DNA of 64,000 nucleotides from the NCBI RefSeq assembly GCF_036826855.1, contig NZ_CP104578.1, forward strand, positions 7,746,501 to 7,810,500. The letters run 5' to 3'. A model generated the notes under the pieces. That model saw nothing but the letters and a program-made list of their open reading frames with translations, was not told the origin of the DNA and did not search any database. Numbering within the stretch: the stretch's first letter is position 1; each line of letters starts with the position of its first letter. Position numbers and translations under genes: made by a program. Of this stretch, positions 23,829 to 32,160 are shown in pieces. The DNA is from Streptomyces sp. SJL17-4. GTDB lineage: Bacteria; Actinomycetota; Actinomycetes; Streptomycetales; Streptomycetaceae.

Positions 23829-24590
23829 ATGCCTGCCCCGTCCCCGAGCCCCGGGCCCCAGTCCGCCGACCGTGCCCTCGCCGTCCTCGACGCCGTCGCC
23901 GACGCGGACCGGCCCGTCGGGGCGAAGGCGCTGGCCAGGCACCTCGGCTGCGCCCTCTCGACCGTCTACCACCTCGCCGGGCCCCTGCTCGCGCGCGGCT
24001 ACCTCGTCCGTACCGCCGAGGGGTACGCCCCCGGGCCCCGCGTCCCGGCCCTGCACCGTTCCCACCAGCGGCACCACGGGCTCGGCACAGGCACCGGCGA
24101 GCTCCTCGGCCGACTGCGGCGGGCCACCGGCGCGGAGGCGTACCACACCGCCTACCGCGACGGCCTGATCACCGTCGTCGACACCACCGCCCCCGTCACC
24201 GACGCGGGCCACCCCTTCACCCCGGGCCCCGAACAGCGCGCCCACGCGACCGCCCACGGCAAGGCACTGCTCGCCGCGCTGCCGCGACCGCTGCGCCGCC
24301 GCTATCTCACGGAGCACGGGATGGCCCGCTTCACCGAGCGGACGATCACCAGCGCCGAGCGCTTCGAGGCCGAGGTCGACCGCGTGCGCGGGCAGGGCAT
24401 CGCCGTCTCCGTGGGCGAGGCGGACCTCGCGTACACCTGTCTCGCCGTCGCGCTGCCCGAGCGCGGCGACGGCATCGTGCACGCCCTGTCCGTCTCGCTG
24501 CCGACCGCCGACTTCGGGCGGCGGCAGGGCGAGATCCGGGCCGCCCTCACCCGTGCCGTACCGGAGTTTCCGGCCCTGCCGGAATCCTGA
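23829..24590 (+). CDS. IclR family transcriptional regulator
   Basis: 253 residues. The N-terminal winged helix-turn-helix is SADRALAVLDAVADADRPVG and KALARHLGCALSTVYHLAGP. The C-terminal IclR effector domain contains HATAHGKALLAALP and the TITSAERFEAEVDRVRGQGI segment typical of the family. Such regulators bind small carboxylates or aromatic acids. It is divergent from VanW and 45 bp upstream of a small monooxygenase gene that may be co-transcribed. Confidence 0.88.
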   Translation: MPAPSPSPGPQSADRALAVLDAVADADRPVGAKALARHLGCALSTVYHLAGPLLARGYLVRTAEGYAPGPRVPALHRSHQRHHGLGTGTGELLGRLRRATGAEAYHTAYRDGLITVVDTTAPVTDAGHPFTPGPEQRAHATAHGKALLAALPRPLRRRYLTEHGMARFTERTITSAERFEAEVDRVRGQGIAVSVGEADLAYTCLAVALPERGDGIVHALSVSLPTADFGRRQGEIRAALTRAVPEFPALPES

Positions 24591-24635
24591 CCGGACCGAC
24601 TGGCCGCGCCGGCCGGGGCGCCGCAGGCTTGTCGC

Positions 24636-24965
24636 ATGATCTTCATCGCCGTACGTTTCACCGCCCGCCCCGACCACGCCGACCGCTGGCTCGACCTGGT
24701 GGCCGACTTCACCCGCGCCACCCGCGAGGAGCCCGGCAACCTCTTCTTCGACTGGTCGCGCAGCGTCGACGACCCGAACGTCTTCGTCCTCCTGGAGGCC
24801 TTCGCCGACGCCGACGCGGGCGCGGCCCACGTCGCCTCCCCGCACTTCACGGCCGGTCTGGAGGCGATGGCCGGAGCCATCGCCACCACGCCCGAGATCA
24901 TCAACGTCGAGGTCCCGCAGCAGGGTTGGGGTGCCATGGCGGAGCTCGCCCCCACCGGCGCCTGA
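24636..24965 (+). CDS. ABM-domain putative quinol monooxygenase
   Basis: 109 residues with the dimeric ferredoxin-like ABM fold: MIFIAVRFTARPDHADRWLD; EEPGNLFFDWSRSVDDPNVF; and a helix ending HFTAGLEAMAGAI. Relatives (YgiN, ActVA-Orf6) oxidise quinols or aromatic polyketides without cofactors. It follows the IclR regulator in the same direction with a 45-bp gap. Confidence 0.85.
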   Translation: MIFIAVRFTARPDHADRWLDLVADFTRATREEPGNLFFDWSRSVDDPNVFVLLEAFADADAGAAHVASPHFTAGLEAMAGAIATTPEIINVEVPQQGWGAMAELAPTGA

Positions 24966-25137
24966 GCGTTCCCCCGCCCGGCGCCCGAACGTCCCCCGCC
25001 CGGCGCCCCCACCCCCTCCCGGCGGTCCGGGGCACGTGCCTGGAGCCCTTCCGCGGTTCCCTCGGGGCGCCCCGCCCCGCCTGATAGGTTCGCGTGCACA
25101 CGCAGGCGGGGCGGCGGCCCGAGGGGAGAAGCGGCAC

Positions 25138-26172
25138 ATGGCGGTGAGCGGGCGGCAGACCGGCAGGCCCACCCTTGAGGAGGTCGCGGCCAGGGCAGGA
25201 GTCGGCCGCGGCACCGTATCCCGGGTCATCAACGGCTCCCCCCGGGTGAGCGAACAGGCCAAGGCCGCCGTCGAGCGGGCCGTCGCCGAGCTCGGCTACG
25301 TACCCAACCGGGCCGCCCGCGCCCTGGCCGGCAGCCGGACCGACGCCGTCGCCCTGGTGATTCCCGAGACCGAGGCCCGGCTCTTCGCGGAGCCGTACTT
25401 CCTCGACATCATCCGTGGTGTCAGCAGCGAACTCGCCGGCGCCGACAAGCAGTTGCTGCTCACCCTGATCCGCAGCGAGCAGGAGCGACAGCGCTTCGAG
25501 CAGTACCTCGCCGCCCAGCGCGTCGACGGCGTCCTCCTCGTCTCCGTACACGCCGCCGACCCCCTGCCCGACCAGGTCCGCGCCCTCGGCCTGCCCGCCG
25601 TCCTCAACGGCCGCCGCACCGAGGACGAGCGCGTCGCCTTCGTCGACTCCGACAACACCGGCGCCGGCCGGGCCGCCGTCGCGCATCTCGCCGCGCGCGG
25701 CCGACGCGCCGTCGCCACGATCACCGGACCGCTCGACATGTACGTGGCCCGCTGCCGTCTCGACGGCTACCGGGAGGGCCTGGCGGAGGCCGGACTCGCC
25801 GCCGACGACGGGCTCGTCGCCACCGGGGACTTCACCGAGGAGGGCGGGCGCCACGCCATGCGGGAACTCCTGGACCGCAGGCCGGACCTGGACGCCGTCT
25901 TCGCCGCCTCCGACGTCATGGCCGCGGGCGCGCGCGGCGTCCTTCGCGAGGCGGGCCGCCGGGTCCCCGAGGACGTGGCGCTCGTCGGCGTCGACGACTC
26001 GGCCGTCGCCCGGCACATGGACCCGCCGCTGACCAGCGTCCGCCAGCCCATCGAGGAGATGGGCCGCACCATGGCCCGACTGCTCCTCCAGGAGATCGCC
26101 GCCCCCAGCGAACCGGACGAGCAGCCCCGCCGGATGCTCCCGACGGAACTCGTCGTCCGCGCGTCCTCCTGA
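25138..26172 (+). CDS. LacI family transcriptional regulator
   Basis: 344 residues. The helix-turn-helix and hinge helix are TLEEVAARAGVGRGTVSRVI and VERAVAELGYVPNRAARALA. The periplasmic-binding-protein-like effector domain includes VALVIPETEARLFAEPYFLD, the sugar-binding-type RCRLDGYREGLAEAG and FAASDVMAAGARGVLREAGR. The ATG at 25138 follows GAGGGGAGAAG. No sugar transporter is adjacent, so the effector and regulon cannot be guessed. The preceding gap (24966-25137) contains a 20-bp C-rich direct repeat but no gene. Confidence 0.9.
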   Translation: MAVSGRQTGRPTLEEVAARAGVGRGTVSRVINGSPRVSEQAKAAVERAVAELGYVPNRAARALAGSRTDAVALVIPETEARLFAEPYFLDIIRGVSSELAGADKQLLLTLIRSEQERQRFEQYLAAQRVDGVLLVSVHAADPLPDQVRALGLPAVLNGRRTEDERVAFVDSDNTGAGRAAVAHLAARGRRAVATITGPLDMYVARCRLDGYREGLAEAGLAADDGLVATGDFTEEGGRHAMRELLDRRPDLDAVFAASDVMAAGARGVLREAGRRVPEDVALVGVDDSAVARHMDPPLTSVRQPIEEMGRTMARLLLQEIAAPSEPDEQPRRMLPTELVVRASS

Positions 26173-26329: not shown

Positions 26330-29300
26330 ATGTCGCTGCGCCAGCGGAACCGGCCGCTCGCCGCGACCGGGGCACTGCGCCGATGGACCCTGCTGTACCT
26401 CCTGATCGTGGCCGCGTTGACGGCCGCCTACCTGGAGTTCCCCGCCCGGCACACCGTCCTGTGGGCGCTCATCGGCCTCGGCGGCGTCGCCGCGATCCTC
26501 GTCGGCGTCCGCCTCCACAAGCCGGCCCGGCGCTGGCCCTGGCTGGTGCTCGCCGCCGCCAACCTCGCCTTCGTGGGCGGCGACACCGCGTACAACGCCC
26601 TGGAGGGCTTCTTCGGCCAGACCAGGCCGTTCCCCTCCGTCGCCGACGCCCTGTACCTGGCCACCTACCCCCTGTTCGCCATCGGCCTGTTCGGCTTCAT
26701 CCGCTACCGGGCCGTCGGCCGCGACCTCGGCGTCGTCCTCGACGCGCTGATCCTCACCTCGGGCCTCGCGCTGCTCTCCTGGGTCAACCTCATCACCCCG
26801 CTGGCCAGGAGCGAGGACATGAGCTGGGTCGAGAAGGCCATCTCCATCGCCTATCCCCTCGGCGACGTGCTCATGCTCGCGATGCTCGCCCGGCTGCTCG
26901 TGCCCGGCGGCCTCAGATCCCGGTCCGTGCAGCTCCTCACCCTCGGCACCTGCGGCATCCTCGCCTCCGACGTCATCTACGGCACGCTCCAACTGCGCGG
27001 CACCTGGCAGGTCGGCACCCCCTGGGACCTCGGCTGGGTCGTCTTCTTCACCGCCTGGGGCCTCGCCGCCCTCCACCCTTCGATGACCGGCCTCACCGAG
27101 CGCGCCCCCGAACCCGCGCCGCACGTGGCCGAGCGACGGCTCGCCCTGCTCGCGGGCGCCTCGCTCGTCGCCCCCGCCCTGCTGCTGCTCCAGTCGCTGC
27201 GGGACGACCGGGACAAGGACATCGCCGTCATCGCCGTCATCGCGGTCTTCTCGGCCCTGATGTTCCTGCTGGTCCTCGCCCGGCTCTGGGGCATGATGAA
27301 CGACCACGGCAAGGCCGAGGCGCGCGAACGGAGCCTCCGGACAGCCGCCGCCTCCCTGGTCGCCGCCCTGAGCCCCCGCGAGGTCGCCGGAGCCGTGGAG
27401 ACGGCGTCCGCGACCCTCTTCGGGCCCGGCACCGAGCACCGGGTCCTGCTGTTCACCCGGGACCGCCGGGGCGGCCTGAGCGGCGTGGCCACGGCCGACC
27501 ACCCCTGGAGCTGCCGCACGGACGAACTGACCCGGCCCCCGGCCTCACCGCCCCGGACGCCGAACCAGCCGACGCCACCTTCGTACGACTCCGCCCACCC
27601 GCCGTACGACGCGAGCCGCCCCGCGAACGAGCCGAGCGGGCACCTCACCCCCTCCGGCGCCGATCCGGGCGGTCCCCCCGCCGATCCGCCCCGGCCTGTC
27701 ACCGACCCGCGCCCCCGGACCCCCGCGACCGCCTGGCCCGAGAGCGTCTCCGACGGCACCCGGCTCCTCCCCGTCTCCCGGCTCGACCCCGCCGTCGCCG
27801 CGGAACTCGCCCCCGAGCCCTTCGTCCTGCTCTGCCCCCTGGAACTCCAGGCACCGGCGGGTCCCGAACCGCTGCTCGGCGTGCTGCTCCTCGCCGGCCC
27901 CGAGAAGAAGCTCGCGGAGATCTCCGGCCCGGCCCAGTCCCTCGCCTCCCAGGCGGCCCTCGCCCTCGAACGCTTCGCCCTCAGCGAGGAGGTCAACCGC
28001 CGCACCAGCGAGGCCTACTTCCGTACCCTCGTGCACAACACCTCGGACGTCATCCTCATCGTCGACGACGACGACAGCGTCCGGTACGCGAGCCCCTCCG
28101 CCGAGTCCATGTTCGGCCGCTCCCTGCTCCCCGGCACCCCCCTCACCGACCTCGTCGCCCCCGCCGACACGGCCGCCGCCCTGCGTGTCCTGGCCGACGC
28201 CCGCACCCGCGCCGCCGTCGACGCCCGGGACGACTGGAAGCTCCTCCACGGCGGCTCGGCCGACCTGGAGGTCGAGGTCCGCTGCAGCAACCTCCGCGAC
28301 GAGCACACCGTGCACGGCCTCGTCCTCACCCTCCGCGACGTGACCGAACAGCGGAAACTGGAACGCGAACTGACCCACCGGGCCTTCCACGACTCGCTCA
28401 CCGGGCTTCCCAACCGCGTCCTGCTCCTGGAACGGGTCGAACGGGCCCTGCTCAGGGGCCGCCGCGAATCCACCCTTACCTGCATGCTCTTCGTCGACCT
28501 CGACGACTTCAAGGTCGTCAACGACACCATGGGGCACTCCGTCGGCGACGAACTCCTCGTCGCCGTCGCCCGCCGCCTCACCTCCGTGCTGCGGCTCACC
28601 GACACCGCGGCCCGCCTCGGCGGCGACGAGTTCGCCGTCCTCATCGAGGGCGCGCGCGAGCCCCGCGACGCCGAGACCCTCGCGGCGGAGATCGTGCACA
28701 CCCTGAGCCAGCCCTTCCACCTCACCGACGGAGCGGTCTCCGTGTCGACCAGCGTCGGCGTCGCGACCGTCCTCGACAGCGCCCACGCCGAGGAACTCCT
28801 CGGCCACGCCGACCTCGCCCTGTACGCGGCCAAGGCGGCCGGCAAGAAGCGCTGGCGGCTCTTCCACCCCGAGTTCCACTCGCGGCTCGTCGCCCGGCAC
28901 GAACTCCAGGCAGGCATGGACACGGCCATCGCCGACCACGCGTTCGCCCTGCGGTACCAGCCGATCGTCGAGGTAAGGGACGGCGCACCGGCCGGCCTCG
29001 AAGCGCTCATCCGCTGGCCGCACGCCCGCCGCGGCATGGTCCCGCCGGACCAGTTCATCGCCCTGGCCGAGGAGAGCGGCCACATCATGCCGCTCGGCGC
29101 CTGGGTCCTCGAACAGGCCGCGCTGGACATCGCCCGCTGGCAGCGCGCCCGCCCCCGCAAGGCCCCGCTGTACGCCAGCGTCAACGTCTCCGCCCGCCAG
29201 TTCCGGGACCCCGGATTCCTCGAAGGCGTACGCCGCACCCTCCACTCCTCGGGGCTCGTGCCCGGCTCCCTCGTCCTGGAGCTCACCGAGACCGTCCTGA

Positions 29301-30991
29301 TGCGCAGGGACGCCCAGATCAGGACCACCATGGCCGCCCTGAAGGAGCTGGGCGTCTCCATCGCCATCGACGACTTCGGCACCGGTTTCTCCTCGCTCAG
29401 CTACCTCCGCGAGTTCCCCATCGACGTCCTGAAGGTCGACAAGTCGTTCATCGACAACATCACGACCGACCCGCAGCAGGTGGCGCTCGTGGAGGGCATC
29501 GTGCGCATCGCCGACGTCCTCGGCCTCCAGGTCGTCGCCGAGGGCATCGAGCACGAGGAACAGCGGGCGCTCCTCGCCGAGATGGGCTGCCGCTACGGCC
29601 AGGGCTACCTCTTCGCCCGCCCCATGACGGCCCACCAGGCCGAGTTCTATCTGCACCGCGCTCCGTCGTCCGGTGAGCGTCCGCCCGCCCGGCCCGCCGT
29701 CCGCCCCGCCGCCCGGGTGGGGCACCCCCCGCGCGCCTCCCGCTGGCGCGACCTCGAGCACCTCCACCGGACCAGCCGGATGTGCGACGCCGTCATCGAC
29801 GAGGTCGATGGCCGCCGCATCCGGGTCGGCGACGACTGGCTCATCGACTTCGCCTCCTGCAACTACCTGGGCCTCGACCTCGACCCGACGGCCATCGAGG
29901 CGATCGAGCCGGAGGTCAGGCGCTGGGGCACCCACCCCAGCTGGTCCCGGCTCATCGGCAGCCCCCGGCTCTACCCCCGCATCGAGGAGCGGCTCACCGA
30001 ACTCCTCGGGGCCTCCGACACGCTGCTGCTGCCCACCGTCACCCTCATCCACCAGTCGGTGATCCCGCTGCTCGCCGGCACCGGACAGGTCTTCGTCGAG
30101 GCACAGGCGCACCGCACCGTGTACGACGGCTGCGTCGCCGCCCGCGGTCAGGGCGCGGAGATCCACCGCTTCCACGCCGAACGGCCCGACGAGCTGGAGG
30201 CGCTGCTGCGCGGCGCGCCCGGCGACGCGAGCCGTCTCATCTGCATGGACGGCGTCAACAGCATGACCGGCAACTTCCCGGACCTCCCCACCCTGGCCCG
30301 GGTCTCCCGCGAGAACAGCGCCCTGCTGTACATCGACGACGCCCACGGCTTCGGAGTCATCGGAGAGCGGCGCCCCGGCGAGACCAGCCCCTACGGCTCG
30401 CGCGGCAACAGCATCGTCCGCCACCTCGGCGAGACCTACGACGACCTGGTCCTGGTCGGCGGCCTCTCCAAGGCGTTCTCCTCGCTGCTCGCCTTCCTCG
30501 CCGTGCCGAAGTGGCTCAAGGACCACCTCAAGGTGGCGGCGGCCCCGTACCTCTACTCAGGCCCCTCGCCGACGGCCTCGCTCGCCACCGCCCTCGCCGG
30601 ACTCGACGTCAACGACGCGCGCGGGGACGAGATCCGGGCCGGGCTCTACCGCAAGACGGCCCGTGTCCTCGACCACGTCCGCGCCCTGGGCATCGCCACT
30701 CCCAACACCGACGGACTGCCGATCGTCGAGATCCCGCTCGCCGACGCGGACGACCTCGACGCGGTCGCCGCCTTCCTCTGGGAACACGGCATCTACGTGA
30801 CGCTCGCCTCCTACCCGCTGGTCCCGCGCGACCGGGTCGGGTTCCGCGTCCAGATCACCGCCGCCAACACCGACGAGGAGATCGGGGAACTCCGCGTCGC
30901 CCTCACCGAACTCGCCGAACGGTTCTCCCTGCAATCCGCCGACGCCGCACGCCCCTCCGTCGTCACCGGCGGCCGGACAGCGGAACCGTGA
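26330..30991 (+). CDS. Fusion: membrane PAS-GGDEF-EAL c-di-GMP protein + PLP-dependent alpha-oxoamine-synthase-like enzyme
   Basis: One uninterrupted frame of 1553 residues. Residues 20-330 hold about eight membrane helices. A GAF-like region split by a Pro-rich insert follows, then a PAS domain (about 560-670; TLVHNTSDVILIVDDDDSVR). A diguanylate cyclase domain has the intact motif GGDEF at 764-768 (ARLGGDEFAVL), and a phosphodiesterase domain has EAL at 891-893 plus TETVLMRRDAQ, IDDFGTGFSSLSYLR and EGIEHEEQ. A 30-residue Pro/Arg linker leads to a fold-type I PLP enzyme (about 1137-1540): FASCNYLGLDLDP, D1336 and H1339 in YIDDAHGFGVIG, Schiff-base lysine K1381 in GGLSKAFSSL. This half resembles AONS/KBL/CqsA enzymes that condense an amino acid with an acyl thioester. 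The ATG has AAGGGGG upstream. An in-frame GTG at 29717 could also start the PLP half alone, but has no clear ribosome site. The methyltransferase frame overlaps its stop (TGATG). Confidence 0.85.
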   Translation: MSLRQRNRPLAATGALRRWTLLYLLIVAALTAAYLEFPARHTVLWALIGLGGVAAILVGVRLHKPARRWPWLVLAAANLAFVGGDTAYNALEGFFGQTRPFPSVADALYLATYPLFAIGLFGFIRYRAVGRDLGVVLDALILTSGLALLSWVNLITPLARSEDMSWVEKAISIAYPLGDVLMLAMLARLLVPGGLRSRSVQLLTLGTCGILASDVIYGTLQLRGTWQVGTPWDLGWVVFFTAWGLAALHPSMTGLTERAPEPAPHVAERRLALLAGASLVAPALLLLQSLRDDRDKDIAVIAVIAVFSALMFLLVLARLWGMMNDHGKAEARERSLRTAAASLVAALSPREVAGAVETASATLFGPGTEHRVLLFTRDRRGGLSGVATADHPWSCRTDELTRPPASPPRTPNQPTPPSYDSAHPPYDASRPANEPSGHLTPSGADPGGPPADPPRPVTDPRPRTPATAWPESVSDGTRLLPVSRLDPAVAAELAPEPFVLLCPLELQAPAGPEPLLGVLLLAGPEKKLAEISGPAQSLASQAALALERFALSEEVNRRTSEAYFRTLVHNTSDVILIVDDDDSVRYASPSAESMFGRSLLPGTPLTDLVAPADTAAALRVLADARTRAAVDARDDWKLLHGGSADLEVEVRCSNLRDEHTVHGLVLTLRDVTEQRKLERELTHRAFHDSLTGLPNRVLLLERVERALLRGRRESTLTCMLFVDLDDFKVVNDTMGHSVGDELLVAVARRLTSVLRLTDTAARLGGDEFAVLIEGAREPRDAETLAAEIVHTLSQPFHLTDGAVSVSTSVGVATVLDSAHAEELLGHADLALYAAKAAGKKRWRLFHPEFHSRLVARHELQAGMDTAIADHAFALRYQPIVEVRDGAPAGLEALIRWPHARRGMVPPDQFIALAEESGHIMPLGAWVLEQAALDIARWQRARPRKAPLYASVNVSARQFRDPGFLEGVRRTLHSSGLVPGSLVLELTETVLMRRDAQIRTTMAALKELGVSIAIDDFGTGFSSLSYLREFPIDVLKVDKSFIDNITTDPQQVALVEGIVRIADVLGLQVVAEGIEHEEQRALLAEMGCRYGQGYLFARPMTAHQAEFYLHRAPSSGERPPARPAVRPAARVGHPPRASRWRDLEHLHRTSRMCDAVIDEVDGRRIRVGDDWLIDFASCNYLGLDLDPTAIEAIEPEVRRWGTHPSWSRLIGSPRLYPRIEERLTELLGASDTLLLPTVTLIHQSVIPLLAGTGQVFVEAQAHRTVYDGCVAARGQGAEIHRFHAERPDELEALLRGAPGDASRLICMDGVNSMTGNFPDLPTLARVSRENSALLYIDDAHGFGVIGERRPGETSPYGSRGNSIVRHLGETYDDLVLVGGLSKAFSSLLAFLAVPKWLKDHLKVAAAPYLYSGPSPTASLATALAGLDVNDARGDEIRAGLYRKTARVLDHVRALGIATPNTDGLPIVEIPLADADDLDAVAAFLWEHGIYVTLASYPLVPRDRVGFRVQITAANTDEEIGELRVALTELAERFSLQSADAARPSVVTGGRTAEP

Positions 30992-31781
30992 TGGGCACGA
31001 CCCAGGTGCGCCGCAACCGGGACGCCGACTGGGACGCCTGGCCCTGGCCGACTACCTCGCCGAGAACTACCGCCGCCTCCACCCCTGCGACATCGGCGTC
31101 ATCCACCACCACGCGTCCGTCCACCGGCGCTACGCCCCCGGCAGCCTGGCCCGCACCCTCGAACTCGGCGCGGGCCCCAACCTCTACCCCCTGATGCTCG
31201 CGGGCGCCGCCAGCCGCCGGATCGACGCCCTCGAACCGAGCGTTGCCAACCTCCGCTATCTGCGCCGCCAGCTCGACCGGGGCCCCGACGACAGCTGGCA
31301 GCCCTTCTACGCCCTGTGCCGCTCCCTCGACCCCGCGCTTCCCGAGAGCTGCACGGAGGCGCTGCACCCGGTGCGGGTCGTGCCCGGCACCGTCGACGAC
31401 CTGGTCCCCGGCACGTACGACCTCGCCTCGATGAACTTCGTCGCCGAGAGCGTCACCGAGGACATCGACGAGTTCACCCGGTTCTGCGACGTCTTCGTCC
31501 GGGCGGTCCGCCCCGGCGGGCGGCTCCTCGCCGCGTTCATGGAACGCATGCCGAGCTACCGCATCGGCGCGGGACCGGTCTGGCCCGCCTGCCCGGTCGA
31601 CGAGGCAACCCTGCGGGCCGTCTTCACGCCCCGTACCACCGGTCTGCGGATCGCCAGGGTCGTCAAGGACCTGACCCTGCCCGAGTACGGGGACACCGGC
31701 ATCCTGCTCCTCACCGCCGAACGGCCGGCCGGACCCACGCCCCCGGTCACGACCAGCACCGCCGCACCGCGGCACGGGTGA
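30991..31781 (+). pseudogene. SAM-dependent methyltransferase with an apparent one-base deletion
   Basis: The ATG at 30991 overlaps the stop of the fusion gene and reads MGTTQVRRNRDADWDAW. The frame then goes wrong. One base over, at about 31041, the protein resumes as LADYLAENYRRLHPCDIGVI and continues to 31781 with ARTLELGAGPNLYPLMLAG (SAM-binding motif I) and DLASMNFVAESVTEDIDEF. No start codon serves this second frame before 31194, which would cut off motif I. Restoring one C in the run at 31039-31043 gives a 263-residue protein. It is either a real frameshift, a programmed one, or a sequence error. Likely a small-molecule methyltransferase acting with the PLP enzyme. Confidence 0.75.
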
Positions 31782-31800: not shown

Positions 31801-32160
31801 TCACGACAGCAGCTCCCGGTAGAGGGCCATGTACCGGGCCGCGAACCGCTCGGGGCCGAAGTGGTCCTCGACGAGCGCCCGGCCCCGCTCGGCGAGCACG
31901 TCCCAGGAGCGCGGCTGGTCGAGCAGCCAGGCCGGCTGCTGCCCGGTGCGGCGCGCGTCGCCCGCCGGAGCCCGGAGCACCGCGTGGCCCAGGTCGGCGA
32001 ACCGGGGGAGGTCGCTGAGGATCGCCGGCCGTCCCGAGGCGAGCGCCTGGAGGACGGTCAGCGGGATGTCGGCCCTGCCGCCGAGCGCCGTCGGCGGGAA
32101 CAGCAGCACATGGACGCCGGCGAGCAGGCACGCCCGCCCGAGCCCGGACCCCTGAGCAGG
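31801..32160 (-). pseudogene. Glycosyltransferase C-terminal remnant
   Basis: The leftward frame ending at 31801 resembles the C-terminal half of a GT-B glycosyltransferase: LLAGVHVLLFPPTALGGRAD, PLTVLQALASGRPAILSDLP, WDVLAERGRALVEDHF. Upstream of about 32160 the frame turns into Arg/Pro-rich translation with no family similarity, and no N-terminal domain exists before the PAP2 gene. It is probably a 5'-truncated relic. Confidence 0.65.

Follow-up and report, generated by a model that had tools for sequence, protein, structure and literature searches.

Among the closest described counterparts of the system considered here are CqsA/CqsS and LqsA/LqsS, in which an alpha-oxoamine synthase (AONS)-type enzyme joins decanoyl-CoA or a similar substrate with an amino acid or, in the case of CqsA, S-adenosylmethionine, to form a product which is read by a six-helix kinase, binding by LqsS not having been shown at the time of that account (available parts of PMC3376566). 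Among the cyclic di-GMP (c-di-GMP) enzymes of Streptomyces, whose N-terminal domains are stated to sense as yet unidentified signals, CdgF of Streptomyces venezuelae is described as a membrane-bound protein of low abundance and predicted bifunctionality, with the architecture 10TM-PAS-PAC-GGDEF-EAL, where 10TM denotes ten transmembrane helices (available parts of PMC6205966). In a 64,000-nucleotide stretch of the genome of Streptomyces sp. SJL17-4 (hereafter the window; single contig NZ_CP104578.1, at 7.75-7.81 Mb of 8.54 Mb), one gene of 1553 uninterrupted codons specifies, in this order, a membrane domain, a PAS domain, GGDEF and EAL domains and an AONS-like, pyridoxal phosphate (PLP)-dependent enzyme. 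We lean slightly towards the view that this locus encodes, on a single polypeptide, the synthase of a signal together with the matching receptor, the output being c-di-GMP or phosphorylation.

The fusion gene (26330..30991, forward strand, as are all features of the gene), assigned by open frame, Pfam, alignment and synteny, begins with a multi-helix membrane domain at approximately residues 15-316 (26372..27277), the proposed receptor, which was delimited by hydropathy, profile, alignment and co-occurrence and within which hydropathy identifies eight hydrophobic segments. It is followed by a PAS domain (residues 563-671; 28016..28342; Pfam), a GGDEF domain (residues 685-841; 28382..28852) with an intact GGDEF motif from residue 764 and an RxxD I-site at 755, and an EAL domain (residues 865-1098; 28922..29623) with its motif at 891 and intact catalytic residues, the latter two domains being defined by Pfam and alignment. 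A junction of residues 1099-1171 (29624..29842; hidden Markov model [HMM] bounds), comprising a variable linker and the start of the enzyme, leads to the AONS-like fold-type I PLP domain, whose Aminotran_1_2 span covers residues 1172-1522 (29843..30895) and includes H1261, D1336, H1339, K1381 and R1506 (Pfam and alignment). Among the aligned rows reaching the respective regions, the GGDEF motif is intact in 105 of 105 and the EAL glutamate is present in 107 of 107, so that c-di-GMP is probably turned over, while the arginine and the aspartate of the I-site are each kept in 86 of 105. With both catalytic sites conserved, the protein is predicted to be bifunctional and could raise or lower c-di-GMP. 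A single pattern for the BldD box found no match in the window.

An earlier note on this DNA had described just such a single chain, with membrane helices, PAS and intact GGDEF and EAL motifs, and the open frame, Pfam and alignment confirm it. The note would have abandoned this description had a stop or frameshift lain between residues 1100 and 1140; none is present, and the possibility that misassembly or loss of a stop created the junction was rejected because fused relatives read through the same position, with 24 to 85 amino acids (aa) between EAL and enzyme across 48 fused loci (HMM bounds).

By sequence, the C-terminal domain is assigned to the AONS family of fold-type I PLP enzymes, whose fold it displays. 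D1336, H1339 and K1381, the residues to which the earlier note had pointed, are in place and conserved across 110 aligned rows (110/110, 110/110 and 109/110, respectively); we take them to be the aspartate, the PLP-side histidine and the catalytic lysine of an AONS. From this fold and these residues, decarboxylative condensation of an amino acid with an acyl thioester would be expected. The domain matches BioF, Kbl, serine palmitoyltransferase and ThAOS at 18-29% identity and falls far below the listed NCBIfam cut-offs, those for BioF and serine palmitoyltransferase included: on the BioF model TIGR00858 the fusion scores 171.5 and a family member, L108, 169.3, against a cut-off of 426.45. Direct homology to CqsA/LqsA, to which the earlier note had likened the enzyme, was rejected, as L108 reaches only 66.6 bits on the CqsA/LqsA model NF005526 (cut-off 428) and is exceeded by a BioF-like paralogue in the window's own genome, L003, at 155 bits; NF005526 is absent from the best 25 of the 42 NCBIfam models for the fusion. 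In two loci, L258 and L259, an enzyme of a sister group is joined to AMP-binding and phosphopantetheine-carrier domains, an arrangement that suggests an acyl donor bound to a carrier. These AONS/acyl-AMP ligase/carrier fusions lie at 6374-9721 of L258, beside a hybrid kinase bearing the membrane domain, and at 8465-11695 of L259, beside a GGDEF-EAL protein. Elsewhere, the catalytic lysine is replaced by glutamine in L172, alongside which no methyltransferase was called, and the fusion lies in pieces in L132 (genome G009); both are read as decaying copies.

By gene order and elimination, the window fusion is predicted to be the orthologue of S. venezuelae CdgF (vnz_02140, sven_0451). A search at 1e-40 recovered five GGDEF-EAL genes in the window's genome, the order of which, when reversed, agrees with that of CdgF, CdgA, RmdB, CdgC and RmdA by gene number in S. 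venezuelae. The proteins in the RmdA and CdgA places have no hydrophobic segments ahead of GGDEF; that in the CdgC place has eight and no EAL motif, the published CdgC having a degenerate EAL, and that in the RmdB place has seven, six helices having been published (PMC6205966, available parts). The RmdB and CdgC places are 22 kb apart, and S. venezuelae likewise has closely spaced numbers for these two genes. Across its full 1547 aa, a fused protein of S. venezuelae shares 89% identity with the window fusion, its cluster members not being tied to the tag vnz_02140. In addition to its place among the five genes, the fusion shares with CdgF its many membrane helices, PAS domain and two intact catalytic sites; it differs in that the published architecture stops at EAL, without a C-terminal enzyme, and neither aminotransferase nor pyridoxal is mentioned in the main text of PMC6205966. 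Public records label the fusion as an aminotransferase-class enzyme, and the domain is thus already in databases, while no paper on the enzyme half of CdgF was found in the open-access literature, most subscription journals being outside that coverage. By this assignment the gene is already known, as cdgF, and its enzyme half appears unremarked in the portions of the literature examined.

Relatives of the enzyme are encoded by 337 stretches of one genome collection. The locus set analysed comprised the window, 40 regions picked from genome-search matches and 80 further loci (the best 80 of the 337), with genes called by a home-made caller whose codon scores were trained on five window genes and which made no AONS call in L138 and missed a neighbour in L244. 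All but one of these 121 loci yielded an AONS gene call; among the 120, the gene is fused in 48, adjacent on the same strand in 51 (gaps of -31 to 161 nt), nearby in 20 and alone at a contig end in 1. Once nine duplicates and a single short fragment had been set aside, there remained 110 non-redundant loci, of which 41 are fused, 49 adjacent on one strand, 19 near and 1 alone; the halves are hence not always separate in orthologues, the second circumstance under which the earlier note would have been withdrawn. Overall, 119 of the 120 loci link the enzyme to GGDEF-EAL, and they do so through several gene orders.

All 41 fused rows fall within one Streptomyces clade of 45 rows (support of 96 in the Shimodaira-Hasegawa-like approximate likelihood ratio test), which also includes four split rows, in a midpoint-rooted tree obtained by a quick method under the simple model LG+G4. 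The tree holds four changes of fused/split state overall, for which the simplest reading would be one fusion event with later re-splits, four changes not being proof of a single origin. At a cut-off of 1e-80, the share of genomes with the enzyme is 51/295 for the genus, 63/293 for the order and 36/394 for the class. A stop-to-stop frame of at least 1400 aa surrounds the enzyme domain in 40 of the 51 positive genus genomes; the 11 without it are likely to hold further split or broken copies, and the proportion of split forms across the genus may exceed the 4 of 45 rows seen in the tree. One locus, L104 (genome G538), seemed fused from an overlapping open frame and was rejected, its genes ending and starting 5 nt apart, a case which illustrates that an open frame alone does not prove fusion.

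In every locus examined outside Streptomyces, the enzyme is a separate protein. In a Frankia-type family, enzyme and GGDEF-EAL gene are carried on opposite strands in 14 loci, and in 4 they share a strand but are separated by other genes. A leucyl/phenylalanyl-tRNA-protein transferase gene overlaps the 3' end of the enzyme-adjacent GGDEF-EAL gene by 4-10 nt in eight loci of this family (L113, L116, L118, L120, L124, L125, L128 and L129); as it is the sole match to its family in each of eight Frankia-type genomes searched, it may be a housekeeping enzyme rather than part of the pathway.

The membrane domain emerges as the constant partner of the enzyme. Twenty distant loci, taken from 20 of 26 enzyme-positive genomes of the same phylum but another class, all place the enzyme next to a protein that bears the fusion's N-terminal domain, as seen from gene calls in 19 (as fragments in L252 and L257) and from genome search in L244, with the domain directly downstream of the enzyme. 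In six of them (L241, L242, L243, L245, L249 and L258) the output domain is swapped, the membrane-domain protein being a histidine kinase; its membrane domain is 38-39% identical to that of the window in the four of the six kinase loci that were aligned. Kinase and GGDEF-EAL protein, both with the membrane domain, follow the enzyme in L242, L245 and L249, while the kinase is the sole domain-bearing partner within the stretch seen in L241, L243 and L258. Pfam found no c-di-GMP domain in these kinases, from which it is apparent that the membrane domain, and not c-di-GMP, is the constant partner.

The same trend holds across 396 genomes of the phylum, in which the membrane domain (cut-off 1e-50; enzyme 1e-80) is present in 26 of 26 enzyme-positive and 28 of 370 enzyme-negative genomes. 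Since the profiles were built from enzyme-linked proteins and the co-occurrence alignment, A4, draws in part on 7 of the 26 positive genomes, the Fisher value of 5e-26 is accompanied by one of 8e-20 without these seven source genomes (19 of 19 left), both values ignoring kinship. Enzyme and membrane domain lie within 10 kb in 25 of the 26 genomes, and on different contigs in G985; within the genus, 21 of 24 domain-bearing genomes are enzyme-positive, G030, G127 and G134 being the others. Extra strong copies of the membrane domain, in open frames of approximately 590-1200 aa, lie elsewhere in Streptomyces genomes G009, G123, G134 and G138 and are possible receptor solos.

The kinase loci bear directly on the alternative which the earlier note had preferred, namely that c-di-GMP, or the state of the GGDEF-EAL module, gates the enzyme in cis and places synthesis under second-messenger control. 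The covalent fusion itself, the largely retained RxxD site and the conserved GGDEF and EAL residues would all suit such gating. However, the same enzyme family stands beside membrane-domain kinases lacking any c-di-GMP domain, as the only such partner in three loci and next to a GGDEF-EAL protein in three more, and outside Streptomyces the enzyme is a separate protein in all loci examined. We regard this alternative as unlikely, and the control of synthesis by c-di-GMP as the least supported of the earlier note's claims.

The genes surrounding the enzyme were assessed for what they indicate of its product. An NNMT/PNMT-like N-methyltransferase gene (30991..31781, forward strand; assigned by comparison with relatives) starts with an ATG at 30991 that overlaps the fusion stop at 30989-30991. 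Residues 1-18 of an intact relative match the frame from 30991 and residues 19-249 another from about 31044, near which the frame is broken, so that the listed open reading frame, 31194-31781, represents the rear part only. The coupled methyltransferase of the earlier note accordingly stands as regards the overlapping start and the intact gene in relatives, and fails as a single frame in the window strain. The window-type enzyme differs from the NNMT/PNMT/INMT and SCO2525-family methyltransferases in scoring below the respective thresholds (22.6 on PF01234 [NNMT/PNMT/TEMT], gathering score 25; SCO2525 cut-off 240). An N-methyltransferase gene lies near the enzyme in 50 of 120 loci, a related major facilitator superfamily (MFS) gene within four genes in 34 of 140, and a SnoaL-like gene nearby in 21 of 120. 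The exporters, the N-methyltransferase and the acyl-loading fusion of the sister group fit small-molecule synthesis, and the small-molecule signal suggested in the earlier note remains plausible.

As to the remaining neighbours, an IclR-type regulator, an ABM-domain protein and a LacI-type regulator are encoded upstream of the fusion (23829-26172), each recurring at a distance of at most four genes in 18-22 of 120 loci. Downstream, on the reverse strand (31801-32109), lies a 102-aa glycosyltransferase remnant, which shares approximately 92% identity with the C-terminal 102 residues of the 364-aa glycosyltransferases encoded downstream of the fusion in relatives; this glycan gene group seems to have been lost in the window. 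A beta-helix protein gene precedes the fusion in eight Streptomyces loci (L101, L102, L174, L197, L199, L201, L202 and L210), with a putative UDP-glucose dehydrogenase gene, read from its first residues, further upstream in the same eight, and a link to exopolysaccharide is possible.

A membrane-lipid or envelope role, whereby the enzyme would make a sphingolipid-like or other long-chain aminolipid tuned by c-di-GMP enzymes, without any cell-to-cell signal, is to be weighed against these same surroundings and is, in our judgement, somewhat less probable again than cis gating. Against it, the membrane domain is carried on sensor-type proteins with swapped outputs, the glycosyltransferase downstream in Streptomyces loci was not found beside the enzyme outside Streptomyces, and the BioF and serine palmitoyltransferase models are far from reached. 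More doubtful still is the notion that the AONS-fold domain is a metabolite sensor, rather than a synthase, which reports to GGDEF-EAL. A fold-type I domain binds a metabolite in MocR-type regulators, and fusion to a signalling protein would agree with such a role, yet the catalytic set is complete in all but one row, separate enzyme genes exist, some on other strands, the sister-group enzyme is joined to acyl-AMP ligase and carrier domains, and methyltransferase and exporter genes lie close by. Lastly, a hitch-hiking pair without shared function is very improbable, for even though GGDEF-EAL genes are common in actinomycetes (5 to 20 matches per genome at 1e-40 in 14 genomes), chance would have to account for linkage in all but one locus despite differing gene orders, for the retention of one fusion across 41 rows and for perfect co-occurrence with an otherwise sparse membrane domain.

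Under the preferred reading, of synthase and receptor in one chain, the AONS-type enzyme would use an acyl thioester and an amino acid to form, by condensation, an alpha-aminoketone, which the NNMT/PNMT-like enzyme may N-methylate and which, in other lineages, the MFS protein may export. The N-terminal membrane domain, in the same chain or, where split, in the neighbouring protein, would sense this product and thereby set the balance between the GGDEF (making) and EAL (breaking) activities; carried on a histidine kinase, it would instead give phosphorylation as the output. In this scheme we infer what the product is, that it is secreted and bound by the membrane domain, and in which direction control runs. 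By association, the case for signalling appears strong, and the occurrence of the same parts as neighbouring genes in relatives suggests a chemical signalling system not previously described. The broader proposal, of a phylum-wide actinobacterial system with an AONS-made alpha-aminoketone autoinducer, a membrane receptor and c-di-GMP or phosphorylation as output, condensed into one polypeptide in Streptomyces, including (by synteny) S. venezuelae CdgF, is offered tentatively, as falling a little short of probable.

Several observations weigh against this interpretation. The motif WGTHPSWSR, near-invariant across the family, replaces WGAGSGAAR of ThAOS (8s1y), so that a different acyl donor is possible, or even a different reaction. 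The methyltransferase frame, intact in relatives, is broken in the window strain, and neither exporter nor methyltransferase is universal. Best-match orthology of the GGDEF-EAL halves was rejected, as the enzyme-linked gene ranks first among the matches to the window's half in G000, G004, G038, G538, G805 and G616 and second or lower in G041, G044, G045, G548, G595, G749, G580 and G644 (8 of 14 genomes searched), and GGDEF-EAL partners may have been exchanged. The membrane domain occurs without the enzyme in the 28 genomes of the phylum and the three Streptomyces genomes given above and may thus have other ligands, and in G548, the single Frankia-type genome tested, its match is weak (59 bits at the locus; 21-24% identity). 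Deletion of cdgF in S. venezuelae gave no developmental phenotype (PMC6205966, available parts).

If a c-di-GMP enzyme does carry the synthase of its own ligand in cis, its input could be found directly, through feeding of the AONS domain combined with a c-di-GMP readout. Actinobacteria are known for hormones of the gamma-butyrolactone type, and aminoketone signals would then be added to the known repertoire of the phylum, with a genetic handle in many genomes in the form of exporter, methyltransferase and sensor kinase genes. We know of no described quorum-sensing system in which synthase and receptor are fused.

In common with CqsA/CqsS and LqsA/LqsS, the system pairs a PLP-dependent AONS-type synthase with a multi-helix membrane protein, here a putative receptor, and in six loci the output is likewise a histidine kinase. 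The systems differ in several respects: the synthase belongs to another AONS subfamily (66.6 bits against the CqsA/LqsA cut-off of 428), the membrane domain has eight hydrophobic segments (ten helices in the CdgF paper, PMC6205966, available parts) as opposed to the six helices of CqsS and LqsS, the main output is GGDEF-EAL, and in Streptomyces the parts form a single chain. The arrangement of a synthase and a membrane domain with exchangeable output is therefore, by analogy, probably best viewed as the logic of CqsA/CqsS with c-di-GMP as the main output, built from enzymes which are not homologues of CqsA.
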